Shown here: piece by piece, positions 1-59,663 of the stretch | Numbering within the stretch: position 1 is the first letter of the stretch | Layout: each line of letters opens with the position of its first letter | Source of the DNA: Polyangiaceae bacterium | GTDB taxonomy: Bacteria; Myxococcota_A; Polyangia; Polyangiales; Polyangiaceae | Assembly (NCBI GenBank): GCA_016933275.1 | Contig: JAFGBI010000095.1 | Coordinates: 1 to 64,000 of the forward strand | Direction of reading: 5' to 3' | Length of the DNA: 64,000 bases | The notes under the pieces: generated by a model | Told to the model about the DNA's origin: nothing | Seen by the model: only the letters and a program-made list of their open reading frames with translations | Database searches by the model: none | Position numbers and translations under genes: made by a program

Positions 1-103
1 AGGCGAGGACGCGTTTCCAGCGCTGCCTCTGGAGAGGTCTGCTGCCGGTTCGGTGCTCTAGGTTGTTGATTTGACGCAGCAATCAACGTGATTGCTGCTC
101 TAG
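1..103 (+). mobile_element. R1 repeat (MITE-like), copy A, cut by window edge
   Basis: This is the right-hand part of a repeat, here called R1, that recurs at nine other places in the window. Full copies are about 160 bp and run from CTAG to CTAG. They have terminal inverted repeats: the left end reads CTAGAGCACCGATCAGG and the reverse complement of the right end reads CTAGAGCAGCAATCAGG. Inside are a 12-bp hairpin (GGAAACGCGTCC and its complement), an internal inverted copy of the left end (CGGTGCTCTAG), and a right-end hairpin (GCAGCAATCA with TGATTGCTGC). The CTAG at 100-103 supplies the stop codon of the next minus-strand gene. By comparison with copy B, about 57 bases lie outside the window. 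Confidence 0.85.
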
Positions 104-423: not shown

Positions 424-954
424 CTACTGGGCGGGCGAGCAGCTGCAGCTCGCGACGCGTTGCTCGTTCCTTGCCACGGTGGCACGCGCGTTGGCGCAGC
501 GCGGGTCCCCGTTCGACGTGAGCCGGCAGATCGCGGAGGCGGCGCGTCGCTGCGAGTCCAGGGCCCGGCACGCGGCCTGGCAGCTCGATGTGCTGGCCGC
601 GAGCGTCCGGGGGGCGGGGGCGCGCTTCGCGGGCCCGGCGGTACCGCTCTCGTCCCGCGCTTCGGCGCTCGGCACCGCTCCGACCACTGCGTCGAGCTCG
701 GCGACGGCGGTCGCGAGTGCGCCCTCGGCATCGGCCAGCGTCGCGAAATCGGGCGCCGCGTCCGGAGCGGCGCCCTGGTTGCCCGGCTCGGCCATCGGGG
801 CCTCCATGTCCGGCGTCGCGGCCTCCTCCGGCGCGCCTTCTGCGGCGGGAGGGGCCTCGGCGGCGGGGTATTGGGTGGCCCCCCCGCACCCGGTCGTCGG
901 TGGTGCGAAGAGCAACAGGAAGAACGGCCAGGATCCGGGACGATGGCGATGCAT
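424..954 (-). CDS. Cys-rich lipoprotein, paralogue of the one at 14777-15349
   Basis: A 176-residue predicted lipoprotein. The N-terminus is a lipoprotein signal (PFFLLLFAPPTTGC, lipidation at the Cys), followed by an Ala/Pro/Glu-rich linker and a C-terminal module with CQAACRALDS, RRAASAIC and a terminal CSC. This C-terminal module matches the lipoprotein at 14777-15349 in Cys positions and in the (A/S)(A/R)xIC and RV...CxC pattern, so the two are paralogues. The start was chosen because GAGGAG lies just upstream of the ATG and the signal peptide begins there; longer readings are arginine-rich shadow. The paired cysteines suggest a small disulfide-stabilised helical domain outside the cytoplasm. 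Function unknown. Confidence 0.75.
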   Translation of the reverse strand: MHRHRPGSWPFFLLLFAPPTTGCGGATQYPAAEAPPAAEGAPEEAATPDMEAPMAEPGNQGAAPDAAPDFATLADAEGALATAVAELDAVVGAVPSAEARDESGTAGPAKRAPAPRTLAASTSSCQAACRALDSQRRAASAICRLTSNGDPRCANARATVARNEQRVASCSCSPAQ

Positions 955-1001
955 GGGTTCTCCTCGCGGAATCAGAACACCGAACGCTCGAGGCTCGAGG
1001 A

Positions 1002-2108
1002 CTACTTGCAGGCGACGATGTACGCGAGCCACCCCGGCTGGTTCTTCGCCCGCGTCTGCTGACGGTAGTCCTCGCCCTCGTCCTCGGGGGCCACGTCCCA
1101 GTAGACCGCGGCGTCGGCGAACCCTGCCTCCTCGAGGAGCTCCCGAATCTCGGGCAGCGACCAGAGGCGCCAGTCGTAGGTGAAGGCGCGCTCGAGCTGG
1201 GTGCCGTCGCGGAAACGAAAGTGGATATGGTTGAGGATCCCGCTGTTGATGGGGTCTACCAGGTCCTGATCCCAGACGTAGGTGAAGCCACCGTCCACGG
1301 CGCGCTTCTCTCGCATCGGTTCGTGCGCCTCCCACCCGCCGTAGGCGTCGAGGAAGAAGACGCCGTCGTCCTTCAACGACCGGTGGACGGCTTCGAAGTA
1401 CTCCCGAAGCGCCGGCCGCGTCTTGAAGAGCCAGTAGCTGAAGTTGAAGGCGGTCACCACGTCGAATTCGGCAGGGGTACTCTCCCGGACGTCCTGCTCC
1501 CGCAACGTGACGCGATCGGCGAGCTCGCCGAGCCCGGCGAGATTCCTGGTGCGCCCCCAGTCGAGGACCTCGCGATCGATGTCGAGCCCCGTCGCGCGGT
1601 TGAGCTCTGGCAGAAGGCGGACCCAGGCGCAACAGAACGCCGCCGTCCCGCAGAAGTCTTCGCGCAACGCTGTGGCTTCGCGTCGGCGCAGCGCGCGGAA
1701 GGTCTTCGCGACGAACTTCGCCTCCTCCTCGGGATTTTGGACCGAACGCTGGTAGAGATCGTGCCTGTCCGCGTTCGCCGCAGTGAGTATCGATTTCCCC
1801 TTCCCTCCGCCCTGGGGGCGTCGGCCGGGCTTCCGCGTTGGCCTCGCCGATCCAGCTCTCGACGAGCCCGTCCGCGTCGAGTTCGGCCGCTTGGATCGCC
1901 GCTGCGTCGAGGGCCCTCGGTCTACGGCGGCCCGGCGTTCCCGCTCCCCATGCAGCCCCCCGTCCTCCGCGGACTTCCGAGCGGCCTTCCGGTCGCGCGC
2001 CGACTGGTTCGAGGTCCTGCCGGTCGTCCCGCGCTCATGGTGCTGCAGCTTTGCCAAGGCCTTGCCGGCGGCCTTGCGATCCTGTCCGGACTGGTCGCTC
2101 TTTCCCAC
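1002..2108 (-). CDS. class I SAM-dependent methyltransferase with basic N-terminal extension
   Basis: The C-terminal ~260 residues form a class I (Rossmann) methyltransferase: motif I region EDFCGTAAFCCAWV, acidic loop GLDIDREVLDW, then FDVVTAFNFSYWLF and a LKDDGVFFLDAYGG strand. It should transfer a methyl group from S-adenosylmethionine; the substrate cannot be read from sequence. The ~105 residues before it are low-complexity and basic, with repeated (A/Q)DRKAA segments, suggesting a nucleic-acid or protein tether. No ATG precedes the core in frame. I chose a GTG at 2108 with GCGAGG about 12 bases upstream, but a start closer to the core is possible. The gene is divergent from the cellulase gene at 2328. 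Confidence 0.75.
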   Translation of the reverse strand: MGKSDQSGQDRKAAGKALAKLQHHERGTTGRTSNQSARDRKAARKSAEDGGLHGERERRAAVDRGPSTQRRSKRPNSTRTGSSRAGSARPTRKPGRRPQGGGKGKSILTAANADRHDLYQRSVQNPEEEAKFVAKTFRALRRREATALREDFCGTAAFCCAWVRLLPELNRATGLDIDREVLDWGRTRNLAGLGELADRVTLREQDVRESTPAEFDVVTAFNFSYWLFKTRPALREYFEAVHRSLKDDGVFFLDAYGGWEAHEPMREKRAVDGGFTYVWDQDLVDPINSGILNHIHFRFRDGTQLERAFTYDWRLWSLPEIRELLEEAGFADAAVYWDVAPEDEGEDYRQQTRAKNQPGWLAYIVACK

Positions 2109-2327
2109 TGTTCGTGCCTCGCTTGGGGTCGAGTCCGCGCTCGCGGGCGGGACCTGCGGCCGCTCATACCAGACTCGGCGCCCGAAATCCGCGCGGATGC
2201 CGCCGAGCGGGCGCGAGACGGGACGGGTGAGCCGTTTTTCTGGCACGATGTGACCCACGCGCCGCGGCCGCGGCCGTCGTTCCCTTCGCCATACCGCCCC
2301 CTCCGCGTCCCCGCCACCAAGGTCACC

Positions 2328-4232
2328 ATGTTCGACTCTCGGATTGTCCCGTCCGCTGGCTGCGCGGTGGTGCTCCTGCTCGTCGCCTGCGGCAAGGATG
2401 AGCTCACCAGCCGCCGCGAGCCGACCGCGCTCGGCGGTGCCGTCGCGAACGATGGCGCTGGTCCCGGCACGGGGGGGCAGGCCGGTGCCGAGGTGGGCGG
2501 GGGCGCCGCGGTCACCGGGGGCTCGTCGAGTACCGGAGGCGCCGGGACCACCGGCGGCGGCAGCCACGCGGACGACGATCTCTTGATCGATGATTTCGAG
2601 GACGGTGACACCACCGCGATGTCGGGTGCAAGCTGGTACGTCTACGACGACGTGCTGAACGGCGGGGGCTCGAGCGTGACGGATTTCGTCAGCGACGAGG
2701 GCTTCGAGTCCTCCCATGCCTTCCTCGTCGAGTACTCCTTCGATCAGGGCGAGCTCACCTACGAGCCATTCATCGGCTTTGGCGTCGCTCTGGGCTCCGG
2801 TCCCACGGATCTGAGCGGATATCAGGGGATCGGGTATACCTACCGGGGTGGCGCCCACGAGGTCCGGCTCGAAACCACCGAGGTCACCGACTACGACTAC
2901 TTCGCCGTGCAGGTGCCGGCATCGGCGAGCTTCAGGACGCGGGTGCTGCCCTTCGGCGATTTCTTCCAAGGTGGCTGGGGCGCTCCCGTCGACTTCGTGC
3001 CCGAGCATGTGACCGGCGTCTCGTTCCACGTGCGCGGTACGACCGGGGAGAGCGACCGCCTGCTGGTCGACGACGTCACCGTGCTCGCCGAGGTCGAGGT
3101 CTCGCGGGTGGCGGATCTCCAGATCGGACCGCCGGCCCCGCCCCAGGACGTCGTGCTCGAGTCCGTTGCCGTCGACACGGACCTGCAGGAGCGGGCGATG
3201 GCGTCCCTCGACCGCGGCTACAACATCACGAACTGGCTCGAGCAGGGACCATTCACCGGGTTTGGCCAGTACGACGGAGACTTCGTCGCCCAGCTCGCGG
3301 ACGCCGGGTTCTGCTCGCTTCGGCTCCCGATCGATCTCGATCTGTTCGTGGAGGGGCGGACGGTGGACGGCGACACCGTGACCCTCCAGGTGAGCGACGA
3401 CCTCTTCACCGTGCTCGATTCCTTCGACGAATGGACGGCGGGTCAGGGCATCGGGTTCACCATCGACTACCACCAGTACGATAGGTCCCTCGACTTCGCC
3501 GACCCGGCGACGCTCGCCGAGATCGTCGAGCTCTGGGGGACGGTGGCCGAGCACTTCGCGGAGAATTCGCGTGAGGATCTCTTCTTCGAGCTCCTCAACG
3601 AGCCGGAGCTCTCGGTGACGGGAAGGCCGCCCAGCGCGGCGGAGTGGACGGAATTGGCGAACCGGATCATCGCTGCGATCCGCGTCCACGATACGACCCA
3701 CACCGTCCTCTTCGGCGACGTCGAGTGGTATGGAATCACGCCGCTCGCCCAACGGACGCCGCTGGATGACGACAACGTCATCTACGTGTTCCACTTCTAC
3801 GATCCGTTCGTCTTCACTCACCAGGGCGCATCCTGGGCCGAGATGGCCACGACCCACGACGTCCCGTATCCCTACTCCGAGGACCGGTGGTCGGAGTACT
3901 CGAGCGACTTCGGTTTCACCAGCGACAGCCCGGCGTGGCACCTCTCCCAGCTCCGAAGCTACTCCACCATGGGGACCAAGTCCGCGCTGCGGAACCGGAT
4001 CGCGGAGGCCAAGGCCTGGGCGGTGGAGCACCAGGTGCCGGTCATCTGCAACGAGTTCGGCGTCTACGACGTGCGATCGCTCCTCGAGGACCGCGCTCGG
4101 TACTACACGGATCTTTCCGACATCTTCGAGGAGTTCGCGATCCCTTGGCAGATCTGGTTCATGATCATGGATCCGACCACGGGCCAGGTCTTGCCCGAGT
4201 ACCGGACCGCGTTCGGGCTCGACGAGGAGTGA
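2328..4232 (+). CDS. GH5-type endoglucanase-like lipoprotein with N-terminal CBM11-like domain
   Basis: A 634-residue exported glycoside hydrolase. Residues 1-21 are a lipoprotein signal (VVLLLVAC), followed by a Gly/Thr-rich linker. A beta-sandwich beginning LLIDDFEDGD and ending LLVDDVTVLAEV resembles CBM11/CIA30 carbohydrate-binding domains. The C-terminal half is a GH5-type TIM barrel: NITNWLE entry, LRLPIDLDLF, FELLNEPE (acid/base Glu in the NEP motif), VFHFYDP, and VICNEFGVY (nucleophile Glu). Family knowledge suggests hydrolysis of beta-1,4-glucans or mannans; the exact substrate is uncertain. The ATG was chosen at the signal peptide. It fits a surface-anchored polysaccharide degrader typical of myxobacteria. 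Confidence 0.88.
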   Translation: MFDSRIVPSAGCAVVLLLVACGKDELTSRREPTALGGAVANDGAGPGTGGQAGAEVGGGAAVTGGSSSTGGAGTTGGGSHADDDLLIDDFEDGDTTAMSGASWYVYDDVLNGGGSSVTDFVSDEGFESSHAFLVEYSFDQGELTYEPFIGFGVALGSGPTDLSGYQGIGYTYRGGAHEVRLETTEVTDYDYFAVQVPASASFRTRVLPFGDFFQGGWGAPVDFVPEHVTGVSFHVRGTTGESDRLLVDDVTVLAEVEVSRVADLQIGPPAPPQDVVLESVAVDTDLQERAMASLDRGYNITNWLEQGPFTGFGQYDGDFVAQLADAGFCSLRLPIDLDLFVEGRTVDGDTVTLQVSDDLFTVLDSFDEWTAGQGIGFTIDYHQYDRSLDFADPATLAEIVELWGTVAEHFAENSREDLFFELLNEPELSVTGRPPSAAEWTELANRIIAAIRVHDTTHTVLFGDVEWYGITPLAQRTPLDDDNVIYVFHFYDPFVFTHQGASWAEMATTHDVPYPYSEDRWSEYSSDFGFTSDSPAWHLSQLRSYSTMGTKSALRNRIAEAKAWAVEHQVPVICNEFGVYDVRSLLEDRARYYTDLSDIFEEFAIPWQIWFMIMDPTTGQVLPEYRTAFGLDEE

Positions 4233-9218: not shown

Positions 9219-9264
9219 CGGGTGGTTGACTTGCCGCAGCGATCAACCTGACTGCTGCTCGAGA
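9219..9264 (+). mobile_element. R1 copy H, right-end fragment, overlapping the gmd 3' end
   Basis: About 46 bp matching only the R1 segment from the internal inverted end to the right terminus, with GCAGCGATCAACCTGACTGC in place of the consensus hairpin. It is diverged and the terminal CTAG has become TCGAG. It overlaps the last codons of gmd, so that protein ends LEQQSG encoded by the repeat. Its sequence (GTTGACT, GCGATCAACC) resembles copy I at 59404, suggesting an older subfamily. Confidence 0.7.
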
Positions 9265-10304
9265 CCGCCGCGGCGGACGCTCTCGGCTTCGCGCGCCTCG
9301 TGGTCGGCGAGCACCCGTTCACGGCGAGCCAAGGCGAGGTCGTGGTCGACCATCATGTCGATGAGCTCGGCGAAGCCCACCTTCGGCGCCCAGCCGAGCC
9401 TCTCTCGCGCCTTCGTCGCGTCACCGAGGAGGAGATCCACCTCCGCCGGGCGGAGGTAGCGGGGGTCGAATTCCACGTGTTGGGCCGGATCGAGATCGAG
9501 CCGGGCGAACGTCGCGTCGAGGAATTCCCGCACCGAGTGGGTCTCGCCCGTGGCCACCACGTAGTCGTCGGGCCCATCCGCTTGCAGCATCCGCCACATC
9601 GCCTCCACGTAGTCGCCGGCGAACCCCCAGTCACGCTGCGCGTCGAGGTTGCCGAGGAAGAGCTTGTCCTGCAGCCCGAGCTTGATGCGCGTGGCCGCGC
9701 GGGTGATCTTCCGCGTCACGAAGGTCTCGCCCCGCCGCGGACTCTCGTGGTTGAAGAGGATGCCGTTGACCGCGAACATGCCGTAGGCCTCCCGGTAGTT
9801 CTGCGTGATGAAATAGGCATAGGCCTTGGCGCAGGCGTACGGGCTCCGCGGGTGGAACGGCGTGCTTTCTCGCTGCGGCACCTCGACGACCTTGCCGTAG
9901 AGCTCGCTGGAGGAGGCCTGATAGTACCGGGTCGCGAGGCCGAGGCGGTGGATGCACTCGAGGAGCCGCACCGCCCCCAGGGCCACGATCTCGCTCGTGT
10001 ACTCTGGCACGTCGAAGCTCACTCGCACGTGGCTCTGCGCCGCGAGGTTATAGACCTCGTCGGGCTCGACTTGGCGCAGGATGGTCGCCAGCGAGGAGGC
10101 GTCGTTCAGATCCCCGTAGTGGAGACGGAGTCGCGCGTTCGGTTCGTGCGGATCTCGGTAGATGTGCTCGATTCGGTCCGTGTTGAAGCTCGACGACCGC
10201 CGCACGATCCCGTGCACCTCGTAGCCCTTCGCGAGCAGAAGCTCCGCGAGGTAGGAGCCATCCTGTCCCGTGATGCCCGTGATGAGCGCCCGCCGCTGTC
10301 GCAT
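9243..10304 (-). CDS. gmd: GDP-mannose 4,6-dehydratase
   Basis: A 353-residue extended SDR that converts GDP-D-mannose to GDP-4-keto-6-deoxymannose, the first step to GDP-fucose, GDP-rhamnose or GDP-perosamine for surface glycans. The NADP-binding loop is [12 protein letters not shown]. Further features are [17 protein letters not shown], the catalytic SSELYG with YACAK (Tyr-xxx-Lys), [16 protein letters not shown] and [17 protein letters not shown], all typical of Gmd. The ATG at 10304 precedes the Rossmann fold directly. The C-terminal LEQQSG is encoded inside R1 copy H, so the native stop has been replaced. No fcl/rmd partner lies adjacent in the window. Confidence 0.95.
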
Positions 10305-11810: not shown

Positions 11811-12968
11811 ATGAGTGAAGTCTTCGCGGTAGGGATCGGGCAGACCGAGGTCGGCGAGCATTGGGATCGCTCGCTCCGCCAGCTCGGGGCGGCAGCGGCG
11901 CGGGCGGCGCTCGCCGACGCCGGGACCGATCGGGTAGACGCCCTCTACGTGGGAAATATGCTGGCGGGGGATCTCTCTGGCCAGCACCACCTCGGCCCCC
12001 TGATCGCCGAGCACGCGGGGCTCTTGGGGATCGAGGCGGTCGCGGTGGAGGCTGCCTGCGGATCCGGAGGGGCCGCCTTCCGGACCGCTTTCCTGGCGGT
12101 CGCGAGCGGGCACGTCGAGGCTGCGCTCGTCGTCGGTGTCGAGAAGATGACGGACCGTCCGGGCAAGGAGGTCACCCAGGGGCTGGTTACGGCCGCCGAC
12201 GCCGATTTCGAGTCCCAGATCGGTCTGTCCTTCGTCGCCATCAACGCGCTGCTGATGCGTCGCTACCTCCTCGAGCACCGCGTCTCTCGCGACGATTTCG
12301 CGCCGTTCATCGTGAACGCCCATGCGAACGCCGTGCACAACCCGATGGCGATGTACCGCTTCGCGGTCTCCGCGGCCGAGTTCTCACGCCAAGCGATGGT
12401 GGCCGATCCGATCTCGGTTCTCGACAGCTCCCCCGTCTGCGATGGGGCAGCCGCGGTCCTTCTCTGCTCTCGGGATCGCGCCCGGGGCCTCGGCAGGAAT
12501 GCAGCGCGGGTGCGGGCGTGCACGGTCGGCACCGATACGATCGCCCTCCACGACCGCCGTGATCCGCTGGAGCTCGCGGCCGCCGTGCGGAGCTCGCGGC
12601 GGGCGTACGAGCTCGCCGGGATCCAGCCGCGTGACATCGACCTCTTCGAGGCGCACGACGCCTTCTCGATCATGACAGCGTTGTCGTTGGAGGCGGCCGG
12701 ATTCGCCGAGCGCGGCCGCGGCGTGGCGTTCGGGGCGAGTGGTGCGATCGCCATCGATGGTGACCTTCCGCTGAGCACGATGGGCGGCCTGAAGGCGCGG
12801 GGCCACCCCGTCGGCGCCACCGGCGTGTACCAGATCGCGGAGGTCCTGTTGCAGCTGCGTGGCGAGGCCGGTCAGAACCAGGTCAAGAACGCGACGCTCG
12901 GCATGGCCCAGAACATCGGCGGGAGCGGGGCCACCGTCGTCACCACCGTTCTCGAGGCCGTCCGCTAG
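11811..12968 (+). CDS. acetyl-CoA C-acetyltransferase (SCP-x-type thiolase)
   Basis: A 385-residue thiolase of the SCP-x/archaeal type. It should condense two acetyl-CoA to acetoacetyl-CoA for the adjacent HMG-CoA synthase. The nucleophile is Cys83 in VEAACGSGGAAF, the His motif is EAHDAFSIM, and the C-terminal motif is KARGHPVGATG. The ATG at 11811 follows CGGAG by 6 bases and is preferred to the GTG at 11793 that overlaps the previous stop. It lies 14 bp from the synthase gene and 11 bp from the DUF35 gene, so one operon. Thiolases of this type paired with DUF35 in steroid catabolism are an alternative, but the HMGS neighbour argues for isoprenoid supply. Confidence 0.88.
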   Translation: MSEVFAVGIGQTEVGEHWDRSLRQLGAAAARAALADAGTDRVDALYVGNMLAGDLSGQHHLGPLIAEHAGLLGIEAVAVEAACGSGGAAFRTAFLAVASGHVEAALVVGVEKMTDRPGKEVTQGLVTAADADFESQIGLSFVAINALLMRRYLLEHRVSRDDFAPFIVNAHANAVHNPMAMYRFAVSAAEFSRQAMVADPISVLDSSPVCDGAAAVLLCSRDRARGLGRNAARVRACTVGTDTIALHDRRDPLELAAAVRSSRRAYELAGIQPRDIDLFEAHDAFSIMTALSLEAAGFAERGRGVAFGASGAIAIDGDLPLSTMGGLKARGHPVGATGVYQIAEVLLQLRGEAGQNQVKNATLGMAQNIGGSGATVVTTVLEAVR

Positions 12969-13459: not shown

Positions 13460-13619
13460 CTAGAGCACCGATCAGGTTGCCGACCGCAACGGCAGTGCTG
13501 GAAACGCGTCCGTGCAAGGCGAGGACGCGTTTCCAGCGCTGCCTCTGGAGAGGTCTGCTGCCGGTTCGGTGCTCTAGGTTGTCGATTTGACGCAGCAATC
13601 AACCTGATTGCTGCTCTAG
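13460..13619 (+). mobile_element. R1 repeat (MITE-like), copy B, best complete copy
   Basis: Complete 160-bp R1 with CTAG at both ends. The terminal repeats match at 18 of the first 20 bases. A perfect 12-bp hairpin lies at 13500-13511/13523-13534, an internal inverted left end around 13566-13577, and a right-end hairpin at 13592-13614. It lies between convergent genes (DUF35 and a lipoprotein). CTAG boundaries fit insertion of a GAG...CTC element into CTAG with TA duplication, as IS630-type transposases do. It encodes no protein. Confidence 0.88.
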
Positions 13620-14201: not shown

Positions 14202-14460
14202 GCGCCCTGAAACGGACACCGGGGCGGGCGGTTAAGCCTCGCATCGATACTCGCTGCGCCTCGACGCCGAACGGGTTGACTCCGTATCATTCTGAACAGC
14301 GAATCGGTGTCAGCGTGGATCGTGCCTCGGGGGGCTCGGGTGGGGATGGGGCGTCGGTGCGCTCCGGTGTGCCCACAAGGCAGCGCCAGGTAGGAGACAG
14401 GTAGACTGGCTAGCGCGGGCCGGGCCCGCAACCCAAGCACGGCGCCGGATCGTGCCCGCG

Positions 14461-14616
14461 CTAGGTTTCTTCTTGGCGGGGGAGGCGAGCTCTCCCCCGC
14501 ATCGGCCACCCCACGCGGCCCCCCCGCCTCGCTGCTCGATGAGCGGTGGGCGCCTCCGGCGCCGAGCCACCGCGCCGCCGAAAGCCCGCGCGTGGCGCGC
14601 GGATCCTCCGACCCAG
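14461..14616 (-). repeat. R2 repeat, copy 1 (CTAG-bounded, three hairpins)
   Basis: Repeat of about 155 bp whose reverse complement matches 40027-40182: a GGATCCGCGCGCCAC block, a GGCGCCGGAGGCGCC hairpin, CGCTCATCGAGC, then GGCCGATGCGGGGGAG and a C-rich complement. It starts with CTAGGTT and ends at CCAG, shared with R1 copy C. The two R2 copies lie in opposite orientations relative to their R1 neighbour. No coding potential seen. The rest of the gap, 14202-14460, holds nothing I can support. Confidence 0.75.
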
Positions 14617-14772
14617 AGCAGCAGTCGGGTTGATTGCTGCGTCAAATCGACAACCTAGAGCACCGAACCGGCAGCAGACCTCGCCCGAGGCGCGGTTGGA
14701 GACGAACCCTCGCTGGGCATGGGTACGTCTCCAGCGGCGCAGTTGCTGTTGGCATCCTGATCGGCGCACTGG
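14613..14772 (-). mobile_element. R1 repeat (MITE-like), copy C, diverged
   Basis: Full-length (160 bp) but diverged R1 in reverse orientation. The central hairpin is GGAGACG (14698-14704) with CGTCTCC (14726-14732). Compared with copy B both arms changed together, so pairing is kept. The left-end CTAG has decayed to CTGG and the right-end one to CCAG. It ends 5 bp from the 3' end of the minus-strand lipoprotein gene at 14777. Confidence 0.8.
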
Positions 14773-15490: not shown

Positions 15491-16639
15491 ATGGGTGCGC
15501 ATCCGCTTTCCTTCGCGAGCCTCGATTTCGCGACCACCCCTTTTCTGGTCATCTGGGAGGTGACGCGGGCCTGTGGGCTCGCCTGCCAGCACTGTCGCGC
15601 GGAGGCGATGGACACCCGAGACCCCCTCGAGCTTACCACCGAGGAGGGGAAGGAACTCCTCGGCCAGATCCACGAGCTTGGCACGCCGGTGTGCGTCCTG
15701 TCCGGGGGTGACCCCCTCGAGCGTTCGGATCTGGCGGAGCTCGTGCGTCACGGCAAGTCCGTTGGCCTTCGGATGGCCACCATTCCGGCGGCGACGCCGA
15801 GGCTGACCCGCGAACGCCTGGTGGAGCTCGTTGCCGCGGGGCTCGATCAGGTCGCCTTCTCGCTCGACGGGTCCACCGCAGAGCGTCACGATGGGTTCCG
15901 GCAGGTCCCCGGGACCTTCGATCGTACTATCGAGGCCGTGGGGTTCGCGCACGAGATCGGGATTCCGCTCCAGATCAACACCACGTTCGCCGCCCACAAC
16001 TACGACGACGTCGACCGGATGACCGAGCTCGTCGAATCGCTCCGGGTGGTGTTCTGGGAGATCTTCTCGCTGGTGCCGGTGGGGCGCGGGACGGTGCTCC
16101 GCCCGATGAGCGCGGTCGAGCACGAGGCGCTCTTCGCCAAGCTCTACGCGACGAGCATGAGGGCAGGCTTCATCGTCAAGGTCACGGAGGCGCCCCACTA
16201 CCGCCGCTACGTGCTCGCCCAACGGGACCGCGGCGGCGGCTCCCGGCCGGGTGGAGGACACCCCGCCGGTGGCGAGCGCTCGGGCTCGGCGATCCCGGCT
16301 CAGCTCTCACGCGAGCTCTCTACTCACGAGTCGTTCGGCGCGCGCGCCAAGGGGATCAATTCCGGCAAGGGCTTCTGTTTCGTGTCCCATCTCGGGGAGG
16401 TGTTTCCGTCCGGCTTCTTTCCCGTGCCCGTGGGGAGCATCCGCGAGCGACCCCTGGCCGAGCTATACCGTGATACGGACCTGATGCGCGCACTGCGCGA
16501 CCCGTCGCGTCTAGCGGGTCGTTGCGGCCGCTGCGAGTATGCCGACGTGTGCGGTGGCTCTCGGGCCCGCGCCTATGCCGTGCATGGCGATTGGTTCGCG
16601 GAGGACCCCGCGTGCCTGTACGAGCCGCCGCGCCGTTAG
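15491..16639 (+). CDS. radical SAM/SPASM protein, AhbD/NirJ-like
   Basis: A 382-residue radical SAM enzyme. The [4Fe-4S]-SAM motif is C28-xxx-C32-xx-C35 in EVTRACGLACQHCRAEA, followed by VCVLSGGDPLERSDL and VAFSLDGSTAERHDGFR. The C-terminal SPASM region has GKGFCFVSHLGEVFPSGFFP and CGRCEYADVCGGSRARAY with a final Cys, to bind auxiliary clusters. This layout is shared by heme-pathway decarboxylases (AhbD, NirJ) and some peptide-maturing enzymes. No precursor peptide or heme genes lie beside it, so the substrate is unknown. Its TAG stop lies within TTAG, the decayed left boundary of R1 copy D. Confidence 0.85.
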   Translation: MGAHPLSFASLDFATTPFLVIWEVTRACGLACQHCRAEAMDTRDPLELTTEEGKELLGQIHELGTPVCVLSGGDPLERSDLAELVRHGKSVGLRMATIPAATPRLTRERLVELVAAGLDQVAFSLDGSTAERHDGFRQVPGTFDRTIEAVGFAHEIGIPLQINTTFAAHNYDDVDRMTELVESLRVVFWEIFSLVPVGRGTVLRPMSAVEHEALFAKLYATSMRAGFIVKVTEAPHYRRYVLAQRDRGGGSRPGGGHPAGGERSGSAIPAQLSRELSTHESFGARAKGINSGKGFCFVSHLGEVFPSGFFPVPVGSIRERPLAELYRDTDLMRALRDPSRLAGRCGRCEYADVCGGSRARAYAVHGDWFAEDPACLYEPPRR

Positions 16640-16690
16640 AGCACCGATCCGGTTGCCAATGGCAGCGGCGCCGCTGGAAGCCCATCCATG
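16636..16690 (+). mobile_element. R1 copy D, left-half fragment
   Basis: About 55 bp matching the left third of R1 (TAGAGCACCGATCCGGTTGCC onward through the hairpin's left arm, decayed to GGAAGCCCATCC). The right part is missing. The left boundary TTAG overlaps the stop codon of the radical SAM gene. Confidence 0.65.
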
Positions 16691-16991
16691 TGCTCGGCGC
16701 TTGCTCCGGGCAGTGGCGCGACGACCTCGAGGCATGCTGCATGGACGCCGCGGACGACCTCGATACCCGGGAAGTCGACGCTCCGTACGACGCGGGAACG
16801 ACCGGGGACTGCTGTGACCCGAGCGACCCCTGCGACCGGGCCAACGACGGCCATCGTGACCGTGATGGCACCCAGACCTGGGATGCCGCCGCCGCGCCGG
16901 CGCTTGACCGGCGGGCGGGGTCCAGCAAGGCAGCCGACCGAACGCCGCGAGCTGGCCGTCGCCTCCACCGGTGACGGCTGGCGGGAGGTGA
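16691..16991. other. 301-bp intergenic region, no gene seen
   Basis: Lies between the convergent radical SAM and NYN genes. One plus frame contains an acidic Cys-bearing stretch (CCMDAADDLDTREVDAP) and one minus frame is hydrophobic and Val-rich, but neither has a credible start, ribosome site or recognisable domain. Nothing else supported. Confidence 0.4.
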
Positions 16992-24970: not shown

Positions 24971-25129
24971 CTCGAGCACCGGTCAGGTTGCCCACAGCAA
25001 CGGCGCCGCTGGAAACGTACCCTGCCCGACGAGGGCACGTTTCCAACGGCGCCTCGGACGAGTTCTGCTGCCGGTTCGGTGCTCTAGGTTGTTGATTTGA
25101 CGCAGCAATCAACCTGATTGCTGCTCTAG
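24971..25129 (+). mobile_element. R1 repeat (MITE-like), copy E
   Basis: Complete R1 (159 bp). The left CTAG has become CTCG; the right CTAG is intact. The hairpin is GGAAACGTACCC (25011-25022) with GGGCACGTTTCC (25033-25044): relative to copy B, stem positions 8 and 10 changed on both arms so that pairing is kept. It lies between the convergent DUF4126 and ABC-F genes. Confidence 0.88.
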
Positions 25130-27076: not shown

Positions 27077-28300
27077 ATGACGATTCTACCCGGAAAAGCT
27101 CTCGTCGCTCAGGGCGGCGGTCCCACTGCGGTCATCAATCAGAGCCTCGTCGGCGTGGTCCTCGAGGCGCGGAAGTTCCCCGAGATCCGGCGCGTGTACG
27201 GGGCTCGGCACGGCGTACGCGGTATCCTCAATGAGGATTTCGTAGATCTCACGCAAGCGACCACGCACAACCTCGAGCAGGTGGCGCAGACGCCGGCGTC
27301 CGCGCTCGGCTCCACGCGAGACAAGCCTGACGAGGACTACTGCGGGAAGCTCTTCGACGTCCTGCAGGCGCACGAGATCCGATACTTCTTCTACGTCGGC
27401 GGCAACGACTCTTCGGACACCTGTCGCATCGTCAACGAGCAGGCCAATCGGGCGGGGTACGAGCTTCGCACCGTGCACGTGCCCAAGACGATCGACAACG
27501 ACCTCGTGGGCACCGACCACTGTCCGGGCTATGGCTCGGCCGCGAAGTTCGTCGCGCAGGCGTTCGCCGGCTGTAACGAGGACAACCGCGCGCTCCCCGG
27601 CGTCTACGTGGCGGTCGTCATGGGGCGTCACGCGGGCTTCCTCACGGCGGCCTCCGCGCTCGCCAAGAAGTTCCCGGATGACGGTCCGCATCTCGTTTAC
27701 CTCCCCGAGCGCGCCTTCGATCCGGAGAAGTTCATAGCCGACGTCGAGTCGGTCTACGCGAGGTACGGACGCTGCATCGTTGCAGTCTCCGAGGGCGTCC
27801 AGGACAAGGACGGCAAGCCCATCATGACCACGTTGGCGCAAGGCGCCGTCGAGAAGGACGCGCACGGAAACGTCCAGCTGTCCGGCACAGGCGCGCTCGG
27901 CGATCTACTCGCTGGGTACGTCAAGAGCCACACCAAGATCAAGCGGGTGCGTGCCGACACGCTCGGCTATCTCCAGCGGTCGTTCCTCGGCTGCGTGAGC
28001 GAGGTGGATCAGCGGGAGGCTCGTGAGGTCGGCGAGAAGGCAGTGCAGTACGCGGCCTGGCACAACATCGACGGCTCGGTCGCCATGAATCGGGTTGGCG
28101 ACTATGCGATCGAGTACAAGCTCATCAAGCTCGAAGAGGTCGCGGCCAAGACGAAGCACATGCCCGCCGCATTCATCAACGAGGCGGGCAACGGTATCAC
28201 CCCTGCGTTCCTCGCCTATGCGCGGCCGCTGGTCGGGAACCTTGCCACGACCGACCGCATCGTCGCGCCGCCTGTCAAGAAGATACTGAACCGCGGCTAG
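27077..28300 (+). CDS. pfp: 6-phosphofructokinase, probably pyrophosphate-dependent
   Basis: A 407-residue PFK that phosphorylates fructose 6-phosphate. The phosphate-donor loop reads GGNDSSDT, where ATP enzymes have GGDGS. PKTIDNDL carries Lys where ATP enzymes have Gly. Both are hallmarks of PPi-using enzymes, so the reaction is probably reversible and PPi-dependent. Other features are GGGPTAVIN at the N-terminus and VAVVMGRHAGFLTAAS (the MGR motif). GGAG lies about 9 bases before the ATG and AAGG closer. It stands apart from fba by an 800-bp gap holding R1 copy F. Biochemical donor preference is inferred, not shown. Confidence 0.9.
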   Translation: MTILPGKALVAQGGGPTAVINQSLVGVVLEARKFPEIRRVYGARHGVRGILNEDFVDLTQATTHNLEQVAQTPASALGSTRDKPDEDYCGKLFDVLQAHEIRYFFYVGGNDSSDTCRIVNEQANRAGYELRTVHVPKTIDNDLVGTDHCPGYGSAAKFVAQAFAGCNEDNRALPGVYVAVVMGRHAGFLTAASALAKKFPDDGPHLVYLPERAFDPEKFIADVESVYARYGRCIVAVSEGVQDKDGKPIMTTLAQGAVEKDAHGNVQLSGTGALGDLLAGYVKSHTKIKRVRADTLGYLQRSFLGCVSEVDQREAREVGEKAVQYAAWHNIDGSVAMNRVGDYAIEYKLIKLEEVAAKTKHMPAAFINEAGNGITPAFLAYARPLVGNLATTDRIVAPPVKKILNRG

Positions 28301-28355: not shown

Positions 28356-28515
28356 CTAGAGCAGCAATCGGGTTGATTGCTGCGTCAAATCAGCGACCTA
28401 GAGCACCGAACCGGCAGCAGACGTGACCAGAGGCAGCGCGGGAAACGCGTCCTCGCCTCGTATGGACGCGTTTTCAGCGCTGCCGTTGCTGTTGGCAACC
28501 CGATCGGTGCTCCAG
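28356..28515 (-). mobile_element. R1 repeat (MITE-like), copy F
   Basis: Complete 160-bp R1 in reverse orientation. Right-end CTAG at 28356-28359; the left end has decayed to CCAG at 28515. Hairpin GGAAACGCGTCC with GGACGCGTTTTC (one G-T wobble). It lies 55 bp past the pfp stop, between pfp and fba, both on the plus strand. Confidence 0.88.
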
Positions 28516-32771: not shown

Positions 32772-34262
32772 TCAACGTGACGGGTTTGCCCGCCCGCGGC
32801 GGCGGAGCATCACCGTTAGCCCTGCCAAGAGCAGCGCCGCCAGGCTTCCCCGGTGCTGGTGATCGCTGCCGCCAGCGACACGGCAGCTGCACCCTTCATC
32901 CGTCGGTTCGTCGTCACCCGTGCCCAAGCTGCCCCCGGTACCGGGGTCCGTGATGGTGGCTCCGTAGCCACCGGTTCCCGTACCCCCGCTCGAGGCGCCA
33001 CCGGTCAGCGCGCCACCCGAGGTGGTCAATCCGCCGGTGCTACCGCCGGTGGATCGGCCACCCGTCGTACTCAAGCCGCCGGTCGAGGTGCTACCCGTGC
33101 CGCCAGTCGGGCTGATACCGCCGGTTGGGGTGCCACCCGTGCCGCCAGTTGGGCCGACACCGCCGGTCGAAATGCCACCCGTGCCCCCGGTCGGGCCCAG
33201 GCCACCGGTTGGACGGCCACCCGTCGGGCCAACGCCGCCGGTCGGCGAAACGCCGCCGGTGGGCGGGGCTCCCCCCGTGACGATGCCACCCGAAGTCGAC
33301 ACCCCACCCGTCGGTGCACCGCCCGCCATCTCACCACCGCTCTCCGTGCCGCCGGACTCCGCCCCGCCGGTTCCGCCCGCCCCGCCCGTGCCGGGCTCCG
33401 GGTCGCGGTCGAGGCCGAAGAAGCGAACGACATCGGGCCACAGCGACGGCTGCACCGAAGTCAGATCATGCGGCTTGCCCTGCCCGATGTTCACCTCCAA
33501 CACGACGTCCCCTCCGTCCTCGTACGAGGTTCGTTCCCAGCCGCTGAGACCGGCCCCTTCGGTCCCTCCGCTCACGCCCAGCACGTTGGTCCACTGCAAT
33601 ACCTCTGCGGCAAGGTTCGAGTAGTTGAGCGTGGTGTCGCTGGTGCCGTGCCAGAGCTGGACTCGGGGCCAGGGCCCGCTGTAGTTGCCAGAGGCATTGC
33701 GCACGATGTCGCCCCATTGCTGGGCGCTGTTGTTGGGTGGATTCTGACCACACGCGCCGCATTCGGTCCCTCCGCTCCAGAACCCGGCGGGCACCCCAGC
33801 CAGCACCGAACCGCCGGCGAACACGTCTGGGTACGAAGCCATCAGCGCATTGGTCATGCACGCGCCCGACGACGCTCCTGCAGCGAAGACCCTGCTTGGG
33901 TCGGCGTCGTGTTGCTCGAGCACGTACTCGACCATTTGCACGATGGTCGCCCTCTCGCCGTTGCGCCCGGGCGCAGCATCGAAGCAGTTGCCCGCGGAAT
34001 CCGGGGTGACGATGAGGAAGCCGTATTGGTCGGCCAGCGACTGGAACCATCCATGGGCGGCTCCAGAGTTCCCGCTGCAGTAGTGGATCGCGACCACGAT
34101 CCCCGGTGATGGGTCGGGGTTGGTCGGCGTGTAAAGGTCCATCCCGAGCCCGCTACCGCCGTAGCTTACGCCGTTTTGCCACGCGGCGAACGCCGACTGT
34201 GAAGCGAAGAACGTAACGGCGAGCGGAACCGCAATTGAAGACCGATGTGAGATTCTATTCAT
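32772..34262 (-). CDS. secreted PHB-depolymerase/CE1-like esterase with MYXO-CTERM-like tail
   Basis: A 496-residue exported alpha/beta-hydrolase. Signal peptide to ~residue 26 (AVTFFASQSAFAA). The catalytic domain spans ~28-300: oxyanion region VVAIHYCSGNSGAAHGW, nucleophile Ser131 in AAGASSGACM, Asp in WHGTSDTTLNYS and His in GQGKPHDL. This pattern is the PHB-depolymerase/feruloyl-esterase (CE1) group. A ~150-residue Gly-Thr-Pro repeat (PTGG units) follows. The tail GCSCR, a hydrophobic LAALLLAGLTVML and RRRGR match a MYXO-CTERM sorting signal, so it is probably surface-anchored. Ester substrate unknown. The start ATG has AGGA about 14 bases upstream. Confidence 0.88.
   Translation of the reverse strand: MNRISHRSSIAVPLAVTFFASQSAFAAWQNGVSYGGSGLGMDLYTPTNPDPSPGIVVAIHYCSGNSGAAHGWFQSLADQYGFLIVTPDSAGNCFDAAPGRNGERATIVQMVEYVLEQHDADPSRVFAAGASSGACMTNALMASYPDVFAGGSVLAGVPAGFWSGGTECGACGQNPPNNSAQQWGDIVRNASGNYSGPWPRVQLWHGTSDTTLNYSNLAAEVLQWTNVLGVSGGTEGAGLSGWERTSYEDGGDVVLEVNIGQGKPHDLTSVQPSLWPDVVRFFGLDRDPEPGTGGAGGTGGAESGGTESGGEMAGGAPTGGVSTSGGIVTGGAPPTGGVSPTGGVGPTGGRPTGGLGPTGGTGGISTGGVGPTGGTGGTPTGGISPTGGTGSTSTGGLSTTGGRSTGGSTGGLTTSGGALTGGASSGGTGTGGYGATITDPGTGGSLGTGDDEPTDEGCSCRVAGGSDHQHRGSLAALLLAGLTVMLRRRGRANPSR
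33000..33390 (-). repeat. low-complexity PTGG-coding repeat inside the esterase gene
   Basis: Tandem short units encoding (P/S)TGG(V/I/L) within the linker of the esterase, of variable length with imperfect periodicity. It acts as a flexible stalk between the catalytic domain and the C-terminal sorting tail. The repetitive DNA may vary in length between strains. Confidence 0.75.
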
Positions 34263-40026: not shown

Positions 40027-40182
40027 CTAGGTTCGAGGATCCGCGCGCCACCGGCGGATCCTCGGAGCGCAGCAGATCGGCGCCGGAGGCGCCCGTCGCT
40101 CATCGAGCGGCGAGGAGGGGGAGGCTGCGTGTCGCGGCCGATGCGGGGGAGGGCTCGCCTCCCCCGCGAAAAAGCAACCTAG
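40027..40182 (+). repeat. R2 repeat, copy 2 (CTAG-bounded, three hairpins)
   Basis: A 156-bp element from CTAGGTT to AACCTAG with three perfect hairpins: GAGGATCCGC (40035-40044) with GCGGATCCTC (40054-40063); GGCGCC-GGA-GGCGCC (40079-40093); and GCGGGGGAGG (40143-40152) with CCTCCCCCGC (40158-40167). It matches 14461-14616 in reverse. Its right CTAG is also the right boundary of R1 copy G. Starts 4 bp after the activator's stop. Possibly a second MITE or BIME-like family. Confidence 0.8.
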
Positions 40183-40334
40183 GGCAGCAATCAGGTTGAT
40201 TGCTGCGTCAAATCAACAACCCAAAGGAACCGACAGCAGACCCCTTCAGAGGCAGCACTGGAAACGCGTCCTTGCCTCGCACGGACGCGTTTCCAGCGCT
40301 GCCGTTGCTGTCGGCAACCCGATCGGTGTGCTAG
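40179..40334 (-). mobile_element. R1 repeat (MITE-like), copy G
   Basis: Complete R1 (156 bp) in reverse orientation with CTAG at both ends, a perfect GGAAACGCGTCC/GGACGCGTTTCC hairpin, and a decayed internal end. It abuts R2 copy 2 and shares a CTAG with it. It lies between the convergent sigma-54 activator and mini-Fis genes. Confidence 0.87.
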
Positions 40335-40462
40335 CGCGGGCACGATCCGCCGCCGCGCGTGGGTTTCCGGCCTGTCCCGCGCCAGGGAGGCAATGACTCG
40401 ACGCCGACCGTTGCGCGCGGGGGGCCTGCACAGCCCTGGTCGTCGTTCGGGGAGTAAGGAAG

Positions 40463-41254: not shown

Positions 41255-42676
41255 GTGGCCGAGCCGACAGATCCTCGGCGCCCGACGTCGCCCCGAGCGG
41301 AGACCGCTCCCCTCTCACCTCGGCCGTCGCCATCGCGCCGCGCTGCCGAAGGGGTTGGCTCCAAGCCCCGGTCGGCGCCCCGCTCCCGACTGGCATCCGA
41401 TCCGGAGGAGGGGGACACGACCCGTGTGGAGAAGCCCTCGTTCGCGCAGGTCGACGGCTCGGTGCGGTTCCCGTACGACGAGCTCTATGACGCGGTGGAA
41501 ACCGGCACCAGCAGCGGCTCGAATCTGCTCATGTCACTCACCGGCTTCGCGCAGCTGCGATCCGAAGCCTCGCTGCGGCATGCTTGGGACAGGGCGTTGC
41601 CGATCGGCCGGTTCTTGCGGAGCCGTCTTCGCTTCTTCGGTTGGGTCGTGTCGGCAGCCATTCCGCTCTCGGCGGGGATCGTTGGGTTGTTTGCCGTGGG
41701 GCTCGCGGTGGGTCGCTGGACGGCACCCGCCAGGCAGGTGGCTCCCTCCTCGAACGCCCCTCTGCGGCCGTCAGGGTCGTCTTCGGCCCTGCCCGCGGCG
41801 TCATCGGTCGCTGCGAGCATGAGCCCAGCCGAGCCTGGCCTTGGCACGCGGGCGGCGCAGGGGGATCTCCTCGCCGTCGCCGCCATCGAGACCAAGCCTG
41901 CGGCGGAGCGGACCGCCGAGGAGGTGCTGGCGCTGCGCAGCGGACGGGTGGCTCGCGAGCGAGAGGCGCTGGCGGACCTCAGCGCGAGCCTGGCCAAGGA
42001 GCCGGAGCGGGGGCTCGACTCGTTGGCACTGGGGCACATCGACGCGGCGCTCGACGACCCGCGGTACTTGGGGGATGCGCTGACCGTCCTCGCCCACATG
42101 CCCGCCGGAATCGGCCCAGACCTCCTCTACGAGGCTCTTCACGACGATTCACGTAGCGTCGAGGTACGCACCCTCGCCGGGGAGCTCCTCGCGGCCAAGG
42201 ACGTCGGCGCCCGCGCGACGCCGACCCTCCGCGCGGTGTTGGCCATGACGAACGCCGAGGGGTGCCGAGCCATTGCGTCGGCGCTCCACGACGTAGAGGT
42301 CCACGCGGACGCTCGCTCCCTCCCCTCGCTCTGGGCGGCGAGCATCACGGACCCCTGCACGGTTGGGGCGAGCGAGGAATGTGCCGCGTGCCAGGCCGCC
42401 ACGGAACGTCTGTCGGACATCATGGCAGCGGTTGGCGAACGAGCGTACACTGTACGCCTTGCCCGGACGCCCTCCTGGGCTCGAAGCGTGTCGACCGAGG
42501 AGTCCGTTCCGCCTTCCGCGAGCGCCAGTACCGCCCATCCGATTCGGGTGGGGGGAGCGCCCGCAGCCTCGGGGGCTTCTGCTCCGTCGGCGGCTCGGAC
42601 CGTGGCGTCGCCGAGGGCGACGTCCTCAGCGCCGCCGGTGGTCCCACCGAGGCTGGTCACCGACCCGGGCTTCTAG
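41255..42676 (+). CDS. membrane-anchored sensor-like protein without kinase domain
   Basis: A 473-residue single-pass protein. Residues 1-126 are cytoplasmic (Pro/Arg-rich start, then RFPYDELYDAVETG and LLMSLTGFAQLRSE). A membrane helix lies at ~127-154 (VVSAAIPLSAGIVGLFAVGL). The outer domain (~200-410) is helical and HEAT-like: IGPDLLYEALHDDSRSVEVR, VRTLAGELLAAKDVGARATP, and Cys-bearing AEGCRAIA and EECAACQAATERL. It aligns in order with the outer domain of the tandem kinase at 18036-20891 (GADILYDVW, PGKPCLEYKNL, DCWGC), but no kinase is present. GTG start with AGGA 7 bases upstream. Its TAG stop is the CTAG at the left end of the IS630 remnant. Confidence 0.8.
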   Translation: MAEPTDPRRPTSPRAETAPLSPRPSPSRRAAEGVGSKPRSAPRSRLASDPEEGDTTRVEKPSFAQVDGSVRFPYDELYDAVETGTSSGSNLLMSLTGFAQLRSEASLRHAWDRALPIGRFLRSRLRFFGWVVSAAIPLSAGIVGLFAVGLAVGRWTAPARQVAPSSNAPLRPSGSSSALPAASSVAASMSPAEPGLGTRAAQGDLLAVAAIETKPAAERTAEEVLALRSGRVAREREALADLSASLAKEPERGLDSLALGHIDAALDDPRYLGDALTVLAHMPAGIGPDLLYEALHDDSRSVEVRTLAGELLAAKDVGARATPTLRAVLAMTNAEGCRAIASALHDVEVHADARSLPSLWAASITDPCTVGASEECAACQAATERLSDIMAAVGERAYTVRLARTPSWARSVSTEESVPPSASASTAHPIRVGGAPAASGASAPSAARTVASPRATSSAPPVVPPRLVTDPGF

Positions 42677-43489
42677 ATCACCGGCCGCGCATCGGCGACA
42701 CTGGATGCGTTGGACCGACGACCGGAGCGGATTGGCGACCAGCGAGGACCGATGCGCTGCCGGTGATGGAGGAAGAACAAAGCGACTTCGATTGCTTGGA
42801 GGATGGCCTTGAGTCCGTCGGCTTCGGTGGATACGGCCCGTTACCCGGAACCGAGAGGAGCCGGGCATGATTGGAGGGCGTCCATTGCGTCGCTAGAAAC
42901 GGCGGTCGTTGCTCGAGTGGGCGCGGCGCTGCGGAGATCCAGTAGCGGCACGGCGAGCGCAGATTCTGGCTTATGTCGCCCATCCGCAGGCCACCGCCCG
43001 TGGCGTTGCCGACACCGTTGGGTGCAGCCGTTCGCATGTGTACCGAGTGGCGCAGCGGTTCGGCAAGGCCACCCGCGAAGGTCTTCGTGATGGTTGTCGG
43101 AGCTCTGGCCGCCGCATCGCCGACGGGCGCATGGACGCGCTGGTGGACGAGTTGGTGGCGCCATCGCCGTTGGATTTCGGCTACCCGCGGCCCACCTGGA
43201 CCCGAGCATTACTGCTTCCAGTGGTGCAGGAGAAGACTGGAACGCGGTTCAGTTTGACGACCAGGACCCGTGTGCTGCAGCGCATCGGAGCACGTCGAGG
43301 CTGGCCTCGGCTTCGGCACCGGCCGGGGCGGCGGGTCTTCGGCTGCCGCCGCCGAACCCCCTTTGCCGCCGCCGGAGCCCCAGCCATGGCCGCTTCCCGT
43401 CCTCCATCCGGCCATCGCGGAACGCCATCGGGTCAGCGAAACCCCTGTCCGCGCGATCCGCTGTCGCCGATGATGGAACGGTGATTCAG
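42673..43489 (+). mobile_element. IS630-type insertion sequence remnant with terminal inverted repeats
   Basis: An 817-bp segment flanked by inverted repeats. Positions 42673-42704 (starting CTAGATCACCG) and the complement of 43458-43489 (starting CTGAATCACCG) match without gaps at 24 of 32 positions, including ATCACCG and CATCGGCGACA. Between them is the N-terminal part of an IS630-type transposase frame; the catalytic DDE part is missing, so the element is deleted. The left end overlaps the stop of the gene before it and the right end overlaps the sigma-factor stop. The first 11 bases differ from the R1 end (CTAGAGCACCG) by one base. Confidence 0.7.
42909..43484 (+). pseudogene. truncated IS630-family transposase
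   Basis: The open frame (only a TTG start, an in-frame stop just upstream) contains the IS630 N-terminal layout. An HTH (RRAQILAYVAHPQATARGVA, CSRSHVYRVAQRFG) is followed by EGLRDGCRSSGRR, the second winged helix (PSPLDFGYPRPTWTRALLLP) and RFSLTTRTRVLQRIGARRGW. After ~residue 140 the frame becomes low-complexity Arg/Pro/Ala and the catalytic DDE domain is absent. It is therefore a decayed transposase inside the inverted repeats described above. An upstream 34-codon frame (42766-42870) has no support. Confidence 0.75.
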
Positions 43490-59058: not shown

Positions 59059-59663
59059 GGGTACGGTCCTACCACGTCCCGCAGCAGGTCCTGGGGTGTG
59101 GTTCGACGAGGCGGGGGGGACGGCGCCCGGCACCGCCCCGGTGCGGGTCGGGGTGGGCGGCCGCAGTGCGGGTCGGGGTCAAGCCAGGGGGTGGCATGGT
59201 CGTGGATGCGGAGATCGGGCCGGGCGGCGCCGTGGTTGCAGCCCCGGGAGCCGGAACCGAGAAACGCCATCAGCGAACAGCGGTCAGCGATCAGCCGTCG
59301 GGCAAAGACCGCGAACCCTGGACGCCGGCGGCTGATTCTTGAGCTCAGTGAAAACGTTGCGAAAAATCCGGCACCGTGTGGGGCCCGGCGGACGCGGGTC
59401 CCCAGGTCGTTGACTCGTCGAAGCGATCAACCTGACGGCTGCGCCCGGAGTCCCGGGCCCCGAGATGCCCGCCCAAGGAGCCCCGAGCGCCAAGAACGCA
59501 TCGAAGGACCGTGGAGACACCCTTGGCGAACGCCCGCGACCCGCGCGGGAGCGTTGCCCGAGCGCTGCCTTGACCGCCGAAGGGGCGGCCCGTATGTTGG
59601 TCTTCTCTATGAGAAAGTGCGCCATCGCTCCCAGCGCGGTGGGGATCCATTCGGGGCTAGGGC
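59059..59663. other. 605-bp divergent intergenic region with R1 remnant
   Basis: Divergent between the small lipoprotein (minus) and the kinase (plus). It contains R1 copy I at 59404-59446. Open frames on both strands are Arg/Pro-rich, apart from a minus frame (59284-59625) that runs through the R1 remnant and has no recognisable domain. No promoter assigned. Confidence 0.4.
59404..59446 (+). mobile_element. R1 copy I, right-end fragment
   Basis: About 43 bp matching the R1 right end (GTTGACTCGTCGAAGCGATC then AACCTGACGGCTGC). Diverged; boundary CTAGs lost. It shares GTTGACT and GCGATCAACCTGAC with copy H at 9219. Confidence 0.55.

Follow-up and report, generated by a model that had tools for sequence, protein, structure and literature searches.

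Stop codons of the form C-TAG are genuine insertion sites of the short repeat R1, and insertion at these sites is neutral for the encoded protein, but such stops are just one kind of CTAG at which R1 does no harm, and they do not guide it. We consider it likely that R1 is a CTAG-targeted element mobilized by an IS630-type transposase, that stop codons do not steer it, and that harmful insertions are removed. A first-pass annotation of the window (the whole stretch of 64,000 nt analysed here) had noticed stop codons lying in element-boundary CTAGs and had proposed that a CTAG-specific transposon is thereby steered to gene ends. The observation is confirmed by our analysis, and its interpretation is partly supported.

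R1 is 160 bp long and is laid out as CTAG, a 118-bp palindromic half, a second CTAG, a 42-bp half and a third CTAG. Its ends are the inverted repeats CTAGAGCASCRATCNGGTTG, for which 846 matches with two mismatches at most were found in the 8.25-Mb genome, against 0-1 for a reversed control pattern. Long composite forms of about 316 bp also occur. The bases outside the boundaries are random while CTAG is conserved at both ends, with C and G retained in 95-97% of cases and T and A in 80-84%, so that the description of the element as CTAG-targeted holds. Being short, devoid of coding capacity, bounded by terminal inverted repeats (TIRs) and dispersed in many copies with distinct flanks, R1 is a MITE (a non-autonomous miniature transposon). 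Related ends are present in 26 of the 59 genomes searched, with up to 57+48 matches outside this genome, and an exact-match scan of named genomes for the R1 core gave none.

Some further features of the ends and units were observed. Across the genome, T and A at the boundary CTAG have been lost in 16-20% of cases, roughly double the rate for other TIR bases and mostly through change to C or G, which may reflect a mutation or repair bias against CTAG. The first base outside R1 is G in 42% of cases at the left end and, read outward-in, C in 57% of cases at the right end, which hints at a GCTAGG target asymmetry. The 42-bp right unit is also found tandemly duplicated, from CTAG to CTAG (L072 1972-2059; G000:C216:86866-86908), perhaps through slippage or re-insertion.

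The mover of R1 is most likely a transposase of the IS630/Tc1-mariner type acting in trans. IS630 has been reported to transpose preferentially to the TA in CTAG (Tenzen & Ohtsubo 1991, cited in PMC2170065), and R1 has TA within CTAG at both of its boundaries. CTAG is likewise found at either end of IS630 elements from several related genomes (L117, L119, L124, L126, L127 and L135). This genome has four IS630-type remnants, and three of them (C364, C160 and C191) lie within about 100 bp of R1 or of R1a, its left half; none of the three is intact or has both ends. An autonomous partner of R1 would be an IS630-type gene flanked by CTAGAGCACC...; no intact transposase with R1 ends was found by a PF13358 search of this genome and 40 relatives, no autonomous element with such ends by a TIR scan of all fetched loci, and none by tblastn of the C364 remnant against 183 genomes.

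At the C364 locus (G000:C364:2031-3901, L092) a RecA-like gene is followed, 8 bp after its stop, by the left half of R1, to which the C-terminal half of an IS630-type transposase is joined; tandem R4 repeats come next. R4 is a separate 164-bp repeat, usually with CTAG-like ends (305 first-look candidates in the genome), and it is found at the middle CTAG of R1 and at many other sites (e.g. G000:C101:47448-47618). We had considered the 164-bp insert of the long form of R1 as the remnant of an autonomous element, and rejected this because the insert is R4; therefore the C364 structure represents adjacency and is not proof of descent.

Because CTAG is palindromic, duplications of TA and of CTAG are indistinguishable, which favours a second candidate, an IS5-type or IS481-type transposase making a 4-6 bp duplication that contains CTAG. 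We judge this unlikely. The genome has 15 matches to the rve domain and 3 to DDE_Tnp_1, the sequence duplicated by IS5 is YTAR, in most cases CTAG (PMC5493358), and the IS5-like MITEPsy1 of Pseudomonas syringae inserts at CTAG or YTAA (PMC3189936). However, PF13586 (IS5/IS427-type) has 0 matches in the genome, an absence that in an assembly 93% complete is not proof; the transposase remnants seen beside R1 are of IS630 and not of IS5 or IS481; and the outer C of the boundary is as conserved as the inner G, with no sites of the YTAA type.

Two of the three stop codons singled out by the first-pass annotation are at boundaries of R1. The left part of the first R1 copy is cut by the window edge (1-103, + strand; nhmmer E=1.2e-33, HMM 58-160; repeat family D1), and its right-boundary CTAG (100-103) holds the stop of an 85-aa secreted-protein-like ORF (100-357, - strand), recognized by its sequence, in which the TAG reads as CTA on the + strand at 100-102. 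This ORF has a signal-peptide-like start, ends in ...RKSVEQL* and gave no match in a Pfam search. The second case is a radical SAM gene (15491-16639, + strand; PF04055 E=1.4e-19), whose stop TAG at 16637-16639 is directly followed by a truncated R1 retaining the left part only (16636-16691, + strand; nhmmer E=9.9e-8, HMM 2-56), the C of the boundary being now a T (TTAG). In 28 of 29 loci with homologues of this protein the match comes within a few residues of the C-terminal end of the query, and almost all of these homologues terminate no more than about 25 residues from that alignment column. Since they end at about that column, the TAG at 16637-16639 is the native stop, and the claim that insertion at a C-TAG stop spares the protein is borne out.

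The third case holds in part. The stop of the ORF named 'sensor' (41426-42676, + strand) does lie in a CTAG (TAG at 42674-42676 in CTAG 42673-42676), but the repeat that begins there is not R1 but E5, a low-copy palindromic repeat (42673-42896, + strand), and the ORF has a weak coding signal and gave no match in a Pfam search. E5 has five other partial matches in the 2.29 Mb sampled below, and these copies start with CCAG, CTCA, CTGA or CTCC, none with an intact CTAG.

A different relationship is seen in the GDP-mannose 4,6-dehydratase-like gene at 9243-10304 (- strand; PF16363 E=3e-144). In contrast to the stop-site cases, this gene enters the R1 element in another frame, and its last residues, LEQQSG*, are read from a solo, decayed right part of R1 (R1b; 9221-9263, + strand; nhmmer E=5.7e-7).

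The remaining copies in the window are complete elements between convergent genes at 13460-13619 (+ strand; CTAG-118-CTAG-42-CTAG), away from a stop, and at 24971-25129 (+ strand; nhmmer E=6e-46); a complete element 59 bp behind a PFK gene (28356-28515, - strand); a copy with decayed boundaries, CCAG and CTGG (14613-14772, - strand; nhmmer E=4e-42); a copy nested between the repeats R2 and R3 (40179-40334, - strand), whose CTAG boundaries are common to its neighbours; and a decayed R1b remnant (59405-59447, + strand; nhmmer E=2e-5). Two further C-TAG stops in the window are without R1, those of a thiolase gene (12965-12968) and of the PFK gene (28297-28300). An ORF at 900-4232 was discarded as a shadow ORF of the first version of the gene caller, which was replaced by a dicodon model. 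Four tandem 42-bp units at 33057-33224 lie within a gene (32772-34142) that likely encodes a repeat-containing protein.

For the test proposed in the first-pass annotation, we used a sample of 2.29 Mb, or 28% of the 8.25-Mb genome, in which many contigs were chosen for carrying R1 and genes were called with a home-made dicodon model, on whose calls the tallies rest. The sample contains 230 mapped R1 copies and 1040 other CTAGs (578 within genes, 364 intergenic and 98 at gene stops). In 58 of the 230 copies (25%) the stop of a neighbouring gene is exactly at the boundary CTAG. The comparison suggested by the first-pass annotation, of R1 boundaries with all other CTAGs (58/230 vs 98/1040), yields an odds ratio (OR) of 3.2 (p=1.3e-9). 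As many as 51 of the 158 C-TAG stops are occupied by R1, an occupancy that is probably inflated because the sampled contigs were partly chosen for R1, while the other stop 4-mers common enough to judge have R1 in about 0-2% of cases (G-TAG 2/223, A-TAG 1/57, C-TGA 3/445, G-TGA 0/351 and A-TGA 0/176). The few occupied stops that are not C-TAG could have arisen if the boundary mutated after insertion. Either end of R1 can face the stop (28 left, 30 right; p=0.90), with no preference. The coincidence with stops is strongest for R1, as ends of the other repeats are seldom at stops (R2 1/38, R3 0/50, R4 10/117).

These numbers could suggest that C-TAG stops steer a CTAG-specific element to gene ends and so explain its bias towards 3' and convergent positions. 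We consider this explanation quite improbable. In its favour are the OR of 3.2 over all CTAGs, the occupation of about one third of the sampled C-TAG stops, and the scarcity of CTAG in genes, where its density is 0.32/kb vs 1.02/kb between genes and where 578 are observed vs about 913 expected after codon shuffling, a depletion of about 1.6-fold. CTAG is, however, not confined to stops: the 578 sites in genes are still the most numerous class and outnumber the 98 free C-TAG stops by about 6:1. When stops are compared with other non-coding CTAGs without stratification, all copies together give an OR of 1.29 (p 0.21); restriction to complete copies raises it to 1.57 (p 0.065), and the further requirement of an intact CTAG at one boundary or both raises it to 1.88 (p 0.009). 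Little weight should be given to p values close to 0.05, since the same data served for several comparisons. This comparison of stops with intergenic sites should be little affected by the R1-biased choice of contigs. However, the raw enrichment is confounded, because stops are always 3' sites and much of the intergenic CTAG lies in divergent gaps, which are poor in R1.

We therefore stratified by convergent, tandem and divergent gaps, and the enrichment of R1 at stops over other non-coding CTAGs vanished (Mantel-Haenszel OR 1.00, p 0.90). With other repeats masked, gene-score cut-offs of 0, 12, 20 and 30 gave Mantel-Haenszel ORs of 0.98, 0.97, 1.29 and 1.09 (p 0.39-1.0), ranging over 0.65-1.38 in subsamples of 70% of the contigs; at the resolution of this test a stop preference below about 1.4-fold would still fit. 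The distance profile behind genes likewise has no R1 peak at the stop relative to background CTAG: the R1/background counts are 58/100 at distance 0 and 22/14, 15/23, 20/33 and 39/53 in the following bins, and R1 relative to CTAG is, if anything, higher in the bin of 1-25 bp than at distance 0. Together with the 75% of copies that are away from stops, the non-significant stratified ORs (0.97-1.29) already contradict steering by stops as the main cause of the R1 distribution.

A gene runs into the element in only 5 of the 230 copies, although 578 of the 1040 background CTAGs are in genes; one of the five is the R1b remnant at the gene 9243-10304. Convergent gaps hold 46 of the 121 complete copies vs 68 of the 439 non-coding background CTAGs, and divergent gaps hold 18 of 121 vs 135 of 439 (p=6e-8 for the convergent excess). 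The statement that nearly all copies are at 3' ends or between convergent genes was therefore too strong, given the 18 complete copies between divergent genes. Nor do stop codons account for the convergent bias, since R1 favours convergent gaps with or without a stop hit, and copies away from stops show the excess as well (R1 vs background, 28 vs 35 in convergent gaps and 55 vs 308 elsewhere). In principle, the convergent excess could reflect target choice and not selection. An excess in convergent gaps has likewise been described for the pneumococcal RUP, BOX, SPRITE and IS elements, and was attributed in that work to weak constraint on the DNA behind genes (PMC3049150).

A functional explanation would be retention of R1 at gene ends for the sake of its strong hairpin, which would terminate transcription or shield the 3' ends of mRNA. 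The predicted fold is very stable (-103.5 kcal/mol, z -11) and the convergent excess would suit such a role, but a palindrome is expected of any MITE, the R1 end is without a T-run, neither end and neither orientation of R1 is preferred at stops (28/30), and copies decay freely, many of them being truncated; we regard this role as very unlikely. A REP-like nature of R1, with movement by a Y1 (RAYT/IS200) transposase, can be dismissed as extremely improbable. R1 is palindromic, 3' and intergenic, and present in hundreds of copies, but it carries terminal inverted repeats, with the same CTAG on either side, and the single Y1_Tnp gene of the genome (C23) is IS200-like. As a candidate mover this gene was rejected, since the surrounding 2.1 kb contain neither CTAG nor an R1 end.

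The simplest account, we infer, is that R1 inserts specifically at CTAG and that harmful insertions are then lost, with selection and not target choice as the probable cause of the bias. R1 would be cut and pasted into CTAG by a transposase supplied in trans, most probably of the IS630/Tc1-mariner type, that would duplicate the central TA, as the symmetrical CTAG suggests. Insertion would split the C-TAG and leave a full CTAG on each flank, and a gene ending in C-TAG would keep its stop and its protein whichever way R1 lands. Insertions within genes would disrupt them and those near promoters would disturb expression, and both would be removed by selection. The surviving copies would be those at stops, within 3' flanks and between convergent genes, their numbers roughly following the local supply of harmless CTAG, with extra survival in the convergent gaps.

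CTAG specificity might also be seen as a safe-harbour strategy, in which a low cost per jump, owing to the depletion of CTAG in genes and to in-frame C-TAG being only a stop, led to hundreds of copies. We find this doubtful; if true, CTAG would be favoured as a target although stops are not preferred over other harmless CTAGs, and the low cost would have let R1 occupy about a third of the sampled C-TAG stops.

CTAG is also the boundary of two further repeats in the window, each with 27 BLAST hits in the 2.29 Mb: R2, of 156 bp (14461-14616, + strand, with a second copy at 40027-40182, - strand), and the palindromic R3, of 55 bp (14410-14464, + strand, with a second copy at 40331-40385, - strand). 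The clusters R3-R2-R1 (14410-14772) and R2-R1-R3 (40027-40385) share CTAG junctions. The families R1, R2 and R3 stack by insertion into one another's boundaries.

R1 is a clear example of an apparent stop-codon preference that arises from a 4-bp target plus selection, and it illustrates how such a preference can be tested, by comparing the occupancy of C-TAG with that of other stop 4-mers and by stratifying for gene orientation. About a third of the sampled C-TAG genes have a strong hairpin right at the stop, which may matter for expression of their 3' ends. C-terminal tails encoded by MITEs, such as LEQQSG*, are to be expected in gene annotation.

Judged by analogy, the closest precedent for the target of R1 is IS630, with its TA within CTAG. 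IS630 and Tc1-mariner elements (IS630 of Shigella sonnei, ISY100) share with R1 the TA target, but R1, unlike IS630, has no gene, no autonomous partner with its ends was found, and the IS630 elements of relatives begin with CTAGTGC or CTAGTTC where R1 begins with CTAGAGC. RUP (repeat unit of pneumococcus) is a MITE of about 107 bp with a TA target, for which IS630-Spn1 has been proposed as the mover in trans (PMC2229807). Like R1, it is over-represented between convergent genes (PMC3049150), but its sequence is unrelated, and R1 differs in its CTAG target and higher abundance. BOX of pneumococcus, also enriched in convergent gaps, supplies the stop of a neighbouring gene in 36 copies without evident truncation (PMC3049150). 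There the stop is encoded by the repeat, whereas in R1, as the CTAG target implies, the stop would be the pre-existing target. MITEPsy1 of P. syringae, a 100-bp MITE at CTAG or YTAA with a 4-bp duplication (PMC3189936), resembles R1 as a short MITE at CTAG and differs from it in its few copies and IS5-type ends.
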